From Ulota crispa (Eukaryota > Streptophyta > Bryopsida > Orthotrichales > Orthotrichaceae): a stretch of 64,000 nt of DNA. The stretch lies in the NCBI GenBank assembly GCA_963920765.1, contig OY987249.1, positions 12,152,817 to 12,216,816 of the forward strand, read 5' to 3'. This document shows positions 28,707 to 41,651 of this stretch, one piece after another. Positions within the stretch are counted from its first letter, which is position 1. Each line of letters starts with the position of its first letter. The notes under the pieces were generated by a model. That model saw only the letters and a list, made by a program, of their open reading frames with translations, was not told the origin of the DNA and did no database searches. The translations under genes were made by a program, and so were the position numbers.

Positions 28707-28961
28707 TGGGGAATGCTAAATCATGAGCGGGAATACATGAGTTGTGAGCCACGAGTTTAGATTTATAACCAAAATATTAAATATCACCTATAAACATGTA
28801 CATAGGTCATTGTAATTGTGCATTATAAACATCCTTCTCTTGAAAAACTTACTATTTTAAAGTTTTTGCATTAATTTTGAGCTCACAATTGGTGTTAGCT
28901 CACAAAATTATGGCTCACCGCTGACGGGCTCATTGTTTTACGCTCATAAAATAGTCTTGTT
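28707..28961. mobile_element. hAT-like MITE, sister of the element in the CorA-like gene
   Basis: It starts TGGGGAATGCTAAATCATGAG and ends near ACGCTCATAAAATAGTCTTGT. It aligns along its whole length with 39107-39362, sharing GTACATAGG, AATTGTG, TCTCTTGAAAAA and TAGCTCACAAAAT in order. No clean 8-bp duplication is visible, so this copy is older or was rearranged. Confidence 0.65.
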
Positions 28962-29124
28962 TGGATGGATACACCACTTGTGTATGGGGTTCACCACTTC
29001 TTTGTGAATAATTTCCATTCCACCATTCCCTACTTCTTTGCCAACTTCTTTAAGTCCAAGATGACATTTGCCAAACAGCCTTGTGTCAGATTTTGCCTAG
29101 CCATGCTCTCTAGCTTGCGTGGAT

Positions 29125-38629: not shown

Positions 38630-41600
38630 ATGGCGTTCAGTTCGAGATCGATCTCTCGGATTGTTCCTGTTCTAACAACGCGCGGCTCAGAGTCAGAGTC
38701 CGAGATGGAGCGAAGCGTACACGGGGAGGATCAACGGCTGCACTTCCCAGGAGCAGTGCGGAAATTCGCGTACAAATTTGACGGCCATGGAAGCTTTGTG
38801 AAGAAAGGGTGGGATTTGACGGAGGACGTGGCGGAGGGGTTTTGTTGGTACCATGTCGAGCTTCCGAGGTCAAGCCAGAAGCTGTCGCTATCGGCGGAGT
38901 ACCTCATCGACGTCCTCTGCCCGCCTTTGAAGCTGCAAGAGATTCTAGCTCTGGTTTCCAGTGGTCCGTTCTGCGGCACAGTGGAAGGGGCGGTGGTGTT
39001 TAGGGTTAACTCCGCTGGGCCTTGTGCAAGCAAATTCACGCAACGAATCTCCGCCTTGGTGACGGAGAATCGAGTGATCAGCGTCTCTCTGGGTCGCGTG
39101 TCCAGGTGGGGAATGCTATTTCATGAGCAGGATTCCATGAGCTGTGAGCAATGAGCCAGGATTTTTGCATAAATAAATAATAATAAATTTTGTACATAGG
39201 ATCTTATTATAATTGTGTAGTTTAAACTATCATCTCTTGAAAAAAACTTGCTGTTTTTTTAGTTATTCCCATCGATTTTGAGTTGAGAATCCGTTCTAGC
39301 TCACAAAATCTTGAATCCCTGCTCATGGCTCACAGTTTTACGCTCACCAAATAGCGTCGTCCTGTCCAGGTTGGACTTCTCCGCCGCGTCCACGAGGTCG
39401 CTGTTGTCGGAGGTGCCTCGGATTGAACCCAGGGGGCGGAGCAGCGGCGGCGAGGGGTTGAGTCATCTGGGGATTACCAAGTATGGCGGGTTCGTCATCC
39501 AGGAGCATGTCTTGGAGTTTCTGTTGAGCAGGAACACATTTGAAGAGGCTGAGAATGCTGTGCCTCGAGGCGTGGGGAACTTGTTGGTGCACATCATTGA
39601 CACTCACGTCGACCAGTTGCACGAGATTGTGCTGCACCTGGAAACCCAACTGGACGACGTCGAGCGTGAACTCGACACAGGTGAACTGCTCCTCCTCTTT
39701 CACCCTCTTTTTTTTGAAAAATCCCACTGGAAATCATTGTAAACCCTATATACATCGTTAGTACGTCACTTACAATGCGCAGCCAGGTCCATATTATGCA
39801 TAGCCACTTACTATACACTTTTAATCTTGGCCATCAAAACAACTCACATGCAATCTCAAGAGTTTCATGTTTCTCAAACTCAATTGCAACAATGACCTAA
39901 AACGTTACAATAAATTGGTGATAAGTCACATGGCAAAACCTCATCAATTTCCTATGCTTACAAAGAAGAAGACAACATTTGTAGCTCATATAGTGAAACC
40001 TATCATGCACAGTTAGTGGATGGCATATTGATGGTCACACATAAGTGTATGTACTTGTGAATTTGATTGTAGAAAGGTTACAACTTTTCAAATAAAGTTG
40101 TCATTTCATTTTTTTCACAGTACTTTCACCTCATTTACCAATTACAATAAAAATAAAAATTAGTAAAGAAATGGTACCCACCTTGTGAAAAACCGTTTGA
40201 AACCCAAATGTGCACGGTGAGTAGCATGTCTACGATATGTCTGCTTGATGATGTTTTGTGATTCTGCAGGCATGGGTGCGACGAAGAAGCAGATGCTGGA
40301 CGACCGACGGTTTCCGAAGATGCACTTGAATTTGCAGCGGTTGTTGCAGGTGGTAGCGCATGGTGACCAGGTGTTTCCCAGAGTGAAAGATAAGTGCGCG
40401 GGGAAAGCTTGGTGCTCCTCCGAGGACCTGGCCACTTTGGAGGCGTTGGTGGGGAGACTGCGAAAGCTGAAGGAGAATGTGGGCTTCACTGTGAGCCGCA
40501 TCACGGCCATTCAAGCAGGCCTGGATAGCTGGCAAGCGGAGCAGATCAATCGCAAGCTGTATTATCTCTCCTTTCTGTCCATGATGTTTCTACCGCTCTC
40601 CATTGTCACTGGAGGTCAGTGCTGCTTTCATCCTTAACCCTTTCTTTATTGCTTGTCTCAACTTTTTGGTGCACCAGTGCAACTCCTGTCTTGCAAATCC
40701 TGTCCTGCTAGGGACCCGTTTTAGCCTAGGTCAGTAAGAATTTGATTGGAAAACTTCCAAATTTGAACTCGTGAGCACTTGTAATTGCATTTAGAAGCCC
40801 CTCTGTCCCCCCTGAAGCGATCATTGAGTTGTAGTTGACCAGGTATGTATCAAACAGTCATGCAGTTACCGAGGTACATGTCAAAACGGATACATAATTT
40901 ATCTTGCTTTATGCAAACCCAAAGACATATGCATCCTTAGAATCTGTCTGTTATTTGTGAGTATGCAACTCAACAACTTCCATATCTCAACTCATGAACA
41001 TATTTGAGAATGCGTCTAGCTCCCCACTCCCAAGGCAGACCAGTCTTATTAGAGGAAATTTAGTGTAGTTGACCATTCCTGCGTCACATAGTTGTACACT
41101 CACCAAGCTTTAGAATCTATGCCAACAAGAAAATTCACACTTTCTCGTTCATCTAACATCATGCAAAACCAAGCCCATGTTCATCCTTAAAATCTACCAT
41201 TATGCGTAAGTATTTGATTCAATAACAAACTTCCATGTTTCGTGTTGTGAACACATGTGAGTGCATAGTGAAGCCCATGAATTCCTTAAAGGCAATGTCC
41301 CGTAGTCACATAATGGGGTTAAAGGAGTAGTGAACACAATGAAGGGGACCAGCGGAATTGGGAAATGTATTCTAATGCCGTGGATGTGGGGGTGTAGCGT
41401 TTGGGATGAACGTGGGAGGAGTACCGTGGACCATGCAGACAAACCCGACGATCAGCCACGGCTTCCGGAACGTCATGCTCATCTGCGCTGCCATTGTCAT
41501 CCTCCTGCTCGTCCTCTTCGGAGCCATGCCGTTGTACAACTTTCTCTCCACTTGGAGGCGTCACAGTGTCCGCTCCAGGGGACTGCGCTCTCAAAAGTCC

Positions 41601-41651
41601 ATCCGCTACCGAGCTGGTCGCCATCGCCATCCTGCCTACCTTCCCCTTTGA
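38630..41651 (+). CDS. CorA-like magnesium transporter family protein (GMN motif)
   Basis: Four coding exons, 38630-39105, 39370-39680, 40270-40614 and 41398-41651, give 461 residues with a continuous frame. Junctions are TCCAG|GTGGGG...GTCCAG|G, ACACAG|GTGAAC...TGCAG|GC, and GGAG|GTCAGT...GTAG|CG. The C-terminal half shows the family clearly: DDRRFPKMHLNLQRLLQV, VGRLRKLKENVGF, AIQAGLDSWQ, QINRKLYYLSFLSM, then GMN at residues 380-382, in AFGMNVGGVPW. Two transmembrane helices lie at about 353-376 and 402-425. GMN between the two C-terminal helices is the CorA/MRS2 signature for Mg2+ channels. The sequence resembles the plant CorA-like group of Arabidopsis At1g29820/At2g42950 rather than MRS2 proper. 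An in-frame ATG at residue 26 (38705) could be the real start. The first intron is a transposon (39107-39362). Transport activity is inferred from family only. Confidence 0.9.
39107..39362. mobile_element. hAT-like MITE acting as intron 1 of the CorA-like gene
   Basis: The 256-bp element is flanked by a perfect 8-bp direct repeat TGTCCAGG (39099-39106 and 39363-39370). Its ends are imperfect inverted repeats: GGGGAATGCTATTTCATGAGC against GGACGACGCTATTTGGTGAGC after reversal, 15 of 21 matching. A full-length relative is at 28707-28961. Eight-bp duplication fits the hAT superfamily. The last G of the left duplication plus the element's first T make the GT donor, and AG of the right duplication is the acceptor. 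Removal of 39106-39369 restores codons GTG TCC AGG TTG GAC (VSRLD). If retained, translation ends at 39154. Confidence 0.82.
40620..41320 (+). repeat. Degenerate direct repeats within the last intron of the CorA-like gene
   Basis: Three diverged copies of a block with AACTTCCA and TGAACACATGTGAG-like sequence start near 40738, 40955 and 41206. The intron (40615-41397) therefore grew partly by tandem duplication of roughly 220-250 bp. Confidence 0.4.

Follow-up and report, generated by a model that had tools for sequence, protein, structure and literature searches.

The origin of introns is an old open question. In maize, a DNA transposon (Ds, dSpm) reportedly creates an intron in a gene, as the titles of Giroux 1994 and Menssen 1990 put it. 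The locus analysed here is similar in that the predicted intron comes from a DNA transposon. By its title, dSpm is said to have the splice sites at its own termini, whereas both splice sites of the present case lie in a duplicated target sequence.

Another route is the AGGT transposon-insertion model of intron gain, which is described in words in the available part of PMC3443670 (Biol Direct 2012). The present case follows this model as given in that part: an AGGT motif is duplicated on both sides of the element, one copy providing an AG/GT donor and the other an AG/G acceptor, and the coding sequence is unchanged. As far as the same portion goes, its Table 1 has 35 transposon-insertion events from Oryza, Drosophila, Oikopleura, and Zea, which are regarded as indirect evidence, in vivo demonstration being absent, and most gained introns were without a known mechanistic origin in 2012. 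Unlike the events in that portion, the present case involves a miniature element (MITE) that looks Mutator-like.

Introners are a third point of comparison. In the accessible sections of the survey by Gozashti et al. 2022 (PMC9860276), they are reported from 175 genomes, while the land plants have none, which lends interest to a legible plant case. A family was kept there only when at least four similar introns reached the splice boundaries, and an example from Florenciella has both splice sites provided by the insertion site. Introners as described in those sections are non-autonomous DNA elements, some with terminal inverted repeats (TIRs) and duplications, that make introns, and the MITE reported here is like them in these respects. 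Unlike those families of at least four introns, it has a single case in coding sequence and a probable one in a leader among the 73 copies examined, which are the smaller part of a family with 1739 first-look candidates. The terms "intron gain", "new intron", "introner", and "intronization" are absent from the available text of a plant MITE review (PMC12595863). No report of such a MITE-born intron in a moss or bryophyte was found in the searched literature, which was largely free of subscription papers. The route to new introns is already known, and legible land-plant cases are few.

The 275-Mb genome gives six matches to the LEAFY domain PF01698 (best 1.2e-27), and 14 prokaryote controls give none. 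LEAFY occurs in land plants and their algal relatives, and the DNA is most likely from a land plant. As listed in Table 1, exon 1 of a CorA-type transporter gene in the window (the whole stretch of 64,000 nucleotides of moss DNA that was analysed) is broken by a MITE with a perfect 9-bp direct repeat, TGTCCAGGT, on either side. The initial annotation had placed the element in the coding sequence of a CorA-like gene between perfect 8-bp repeats; the coding context and the perfection of the repeat hold, while the length is 9 bp. The difference is a single T. It follows the left copy and the right copy alike, and therefore it belongs to the duplication and not to the element, whose first bases are GGGGAATGC. 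The donor CAG/GT had been thought to need the first base of the element, but the GT is inside the duplication. Since this T is duplicated host sequence, the donor GT and the acceptor AG both come from the host. The proto-splice site AG/GT lies entirely within the 9-bp duplication and the MITE contributes neither dinucleotide; the right repeat supplies the CAG acceptor, as annotated.

Table 1. Features of the CorA-type locus and of other copies of the MITE family (slashes mark predicted splice junctions; positions are those of the window unless a contig is given).
Feature	Position	Strand	Remarks
CorA-type gene	38630-41651	+	four exons, 461 residues
Exon 1	38630..39105	+	of the CorA-type gene
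Target-site duplication (9 bp), left copy, TGTCCAGGT	39099..39107	+	TGTCCAG ends exon 1; GT at 39106-39107 is the predicted donor
Predicted intron	39106..39369	+	264 nt, phase 2, CAG/GTGGGG ... TGTCCAG/GT, 36% GC
MITE, non-autonomous, 255 bp	39108..39362	+	Mutator-like by duplication length
Left terminal inverted repeat GGGGAATGCTATTTCATGAGC	39108..39128	+	identical at 15/21 positions to the right end in reverse complement
Right terminal inverted repeat	39342..39362	+	contains branch-point-like CTCAC, A at 39346
Right copy of the 9-bp duplication TGTCCAGGT	39363..39371	+	predicted acceptor AG at 39368-39369; final GT begins exon 2
Exon 2	39370..39680	+	presumably continuous with exon 1 before the insertion
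Exon 3	40270..40614	+	
Exon 4	41398..41651	+	GMN motif and stop
Diverged sister MITE copy	28708..28962	+	same window; 25% from the consensus of sampled copies
MITE copy L006 (= L034/L072)	G000:C10, about 7576950-7577270		right end repeated (60 bp)
MITE copy L070	G000:C5:12582827-12583081		splits a protein-kinase exon
MITE copy L003	G000:C6:12346607-12346864		duplication CTGTTTGCA

The predicted intron equals the MITE plus one copy of the duplication, with zero extra bases. Its removal gives ...GRVSRLDFS..., and the codons return in phase, as had been claimed: a frame of 461 codons is open across the four exons up to the stop, and both later introns are intact. An early stop in the unspliced reading, also foreseen, is real. 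It is met at 39152 (codon 175), which is 18 codons from the start of the duplication at codon 157 and not within 17. The protein matches the Pfam family CorA (PF01544, 9.6e-29) and has the GMN motif. Because of this match, the motif, and the open frame, the gene looks intact. In a genome search, the N-terminal half of the protein matched its own two exons alone, with no N-terminal paralogue, and the CorA domain was found at three further places. Among solved structures, ZntB and CmaX match the C-terminal half only and are uninformative on the intron site.

The GC content of the predicted intron is intron-like, beside 35% and 41% in the other introns of the gene and about 54-58% in the exon stretches next to it. 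Pyrimidines make up 60% of the 20 bases preceding the acceptor AG, and the A of the branch-point-like CTCAC lies 24 nt upstream of the intron end, inside the right inverted repeat. The usual bases at donor positions +3 to +6 are AAGT or GAGT; those of the predicted intron are GGGG. Folded alone, the predicted intron forms a long hairpin (-73.3 kcal/mol, z -4.8), which is expected of any such element because the ends of a MITE are inverted. The first two and the last seven intron bases are unpaired, leaving both splice dinucleotides at the open base. That the hairpin assists splicing is speculation.

It is highly probable that this intron was born from a Mutator-like MITE in exon 1 of the CorA-type gene, through a duplicated proto-splice site. 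The element would have inserted into a presumably intronless part of the exon, at a target containing CAG/GT, and filling-in of the staggered cut would have left the 9-bp duplication on both sides. The left copy would then act as the 5′ splice site CAG/GT and the right copy as the 3′ splice site TGTCCAG/G, and the spliceosome would excise the MITE with exactly one copy of the duplication, giving back the original codons. AGGT is present in both copies and removal restores the frame, as in an intron gained by insertion into AGGT. Intron birth by this route had been proposed in the initial annotation. It is the best fit to the anatomy and is cleaner with 9 bp, while the hAT label attached to it falls away (see below). 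The case is unusually legible, since the element, its target duplication, and the splice signals can all still be read.

The copy in the CorA-type gene (hereafter the index copy) differs by 13.7% from the consensus built on the copies sampled. As these make up a small part of the family, its divergence since insertion is at most this large. The index copy ranks 44th by divergence among 62 rows, some of which repeat one place, and its terminal branch is about 0.10 in an analysis of 73 rows. The earlier remark that no mutation was needed for splicing is plausible, but the copy is not demonstrably recent. The sister copy, which had been reported at 28707 as a sign of mobility, is real; it is well diverged and has no recognisable duplication.

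Could the element simply disrupt the gene? If it were unspliced or poorly spliced, the gene of the sequenced individual would be broken or hypomorphic. The suboptimal donor suits such an allele, and so does a copy of the same family that splits a kinase frame in an apparently dead gene. On the other hand, the full 461-codon frame is open, the two later introns and both splice signals are intact, and the divergence and branch length given above suggest, rather than prove, that a dead gene would have had time to decay. I consider a disrupting allele rather improbable. An older intron at this codon, in which the MITE landed or whose interior it replaced, is extremely unlikely, since both copies of the duplication read as coding on their outer sides and no older intronic sequence flanks the element; there is no intronic base beyond the MITE and one duplication copy. 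A MITE hosted by an old intron was therefore rejected in favour of an intron born from the insertion itself.

The family is large. The first DNA search with the MITE gave 1739 candidates, 40 of which were scored (41 matches), and its right-end pattern is matched exactly at 130 places in the genome. The loci collected were those nearest to the index copy, hits of the AGGT patterns, the first 30 right ends, and 20 further right ends. After 10 of the 96 loci were dropped as repeats of one place or as hits of the CorA gene, 86 remained; 73 have a pair of ends, with flanks that are all different, and 13 have no pair. The family has the features of a MITE, namely 21-bp TIRs, a length of 255 bp, many copies, and no coding capacity seen.

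Elements of the hAT superfamily make duplications of 8 bp, and Mutator-like elements make duplications of about 9-11 bp. The duplication is 9 bp at the index copy and best at 10 bp in the family. With the ends held fixed in 31 copies (30 loci including the index copy, plus the sister copy), 10 bp is the best length, with a mean match of 0.63, 5 perfect duplications, and 13 with at most one mismatch. The mean match is 0.21-0.30 at lengths of 6-9, 11, and 12 bp; the index copy has the sole perfect 9-mer, and none of the 31 copies has a perfect 8-bp duplication. When a slip of at most 2 bases is allowed at the ends, the best duplication is perfect in 17 of 73 copies. Four of these are 8 bp, four 9 bp, five 10 bp, and four 11 bp long, 11 bp being the longest length tried, so that 13/17 fall at 9-11 bp. 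By duplication length, then, the family looks Mutator-like and not hAT. A hAT element with an 8-bp duplication, as originally annotated, would touch the superfamily only and leave the creation of the intron as it is. The 4/17 perfect duplications best at 8 bp would suit it, and no transposase was linked to the MITE family, but the 9-bp perfect repeat at the index copy and both length analyses make it very unlikely, and the hAT assignment was dropped. The MULE transposase domain PF10551 has 54 matches in the genome. For 53 PF10551 places and 100 of the 130 right ends, the smallest distance is 11 kb, and no link by distance was found.

Does the family prefer proto-splice sites? AGGT lies within the next nine bases at 4 of the 130 right ends (3.1%), the index copy included. 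It is found in 2.0% of the 9-mers of the window (+ strand) and at 36 of 1378 positions (2.6%) of the CorA coding sequence. Comparison of the right ends with the window gave no clear sign of a preference. The right-end pattern in the other orientation gave 2 matches with AGGT, the total for this pattern being uncounted, and the left-end patterns gave 4 and 4, several of which are the same places, with totals again uncounted.

The other copies were assessed for exon-like flanks, defined as a GC content of 50% or more in each 200-bp flank, a cut set after the table had been seen. With the window at 35% GC, only 2 of the 73 copies have such flanks on both sides, namely the index copy and L006. Both have a sense AGGT in the two copies of the duplication, as against 1 of the 71 others (hypergeometric 0.001, or 0.028 when the index copy is left out). 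With such tiny counts and a cut made after the fact, the association is suggestive only. Some AT-rich loci were fetched for carrying AGGT, which biases the comparison against the association. At one of them, L076, AGGT stands in each copy of the duplication; the flanks are AT-rich, with no open frame across.

The L006 duplication reads GTGGAAGGTT on the left and GTGTAAGGTT in the outer right flank, with 9 of 10 positions alike; the outer flank is the relevant one because of the 60-bp repeat of the right end. Scans that use the inner end flag AGGT on the left side only, and the two-sided call comes from reading the flanks. About 1.2 kb downstream of L006 is an open frame with PPR repeats, and the AGGT of L006 is on the PPR strand. 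The repeats appear once the locus is extended by 1.5 kb, and the nearer ORFs have no Pfam match. From the position and strand of the PPR frame, L006 is likely a putative 320-nt leader intron of the PPR gene, with AAG/GT at either predicted junction, which would be the second intron for the family.

Two further copies are counter-cases. Removal of L070 together with 10 bp restores the frame of the protein kinase (...KAPEQFDPEACLLQDKVDVCDFGM...). Its duplication has decayed, the kinase strand lacks AGGT, and there is another repeat nearby, so that the gene is probably dead. L070 was rejected as a second coding intron for want of a sense AGGT on that strand. L003 lies where a 318-codon open frame ends, with an AP5B1-like exon (PF21588) adjacent, and its duplication lacks AGGT. 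Since a coding insertion such as L070 has no sense AGGT, the family does not generally act as introns. In view of both counter-cases, it is not a dedicated intron maker, and the target decides the outcome. Among the other places with AGGT, L031, L032, L035, L039/L069, L073, and L075 have no matching duplication, L036 and L074 have no second end nearby, and the AGGT place at L070 was set aside for its decayed duplication.

These observations lead to a tentative idea, which I hold to be somewhat doubtful. Ordinary, abundant land-plant MITEs with 9-10 bp duplications may go on producing introns at a low rate that depends solely on the frequency of AG/GT in the target. Each family would yield one or a few introns, fewer than the four demanded in the survey, and the reported absence of Introners from land plants would be partly a detection limit; the present family would have made at least two, in the CorA coding sequence and in the PPR leader. 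This rate argument is testable: exonic MITE insertions with AG/GT in the duplication should survive, and the rest should be purged.

Six right ends without a nearby left end (L045, L056, L080, L088, L074, and L094) have only the last ~40-65 bp in common with the MITE consensus and are candidates for the parent element. Three interior ORFs of the longer relatives were scanned against Pfam, and no family matched. A similar interior open frame is common to L045, L056, L080, and L088.
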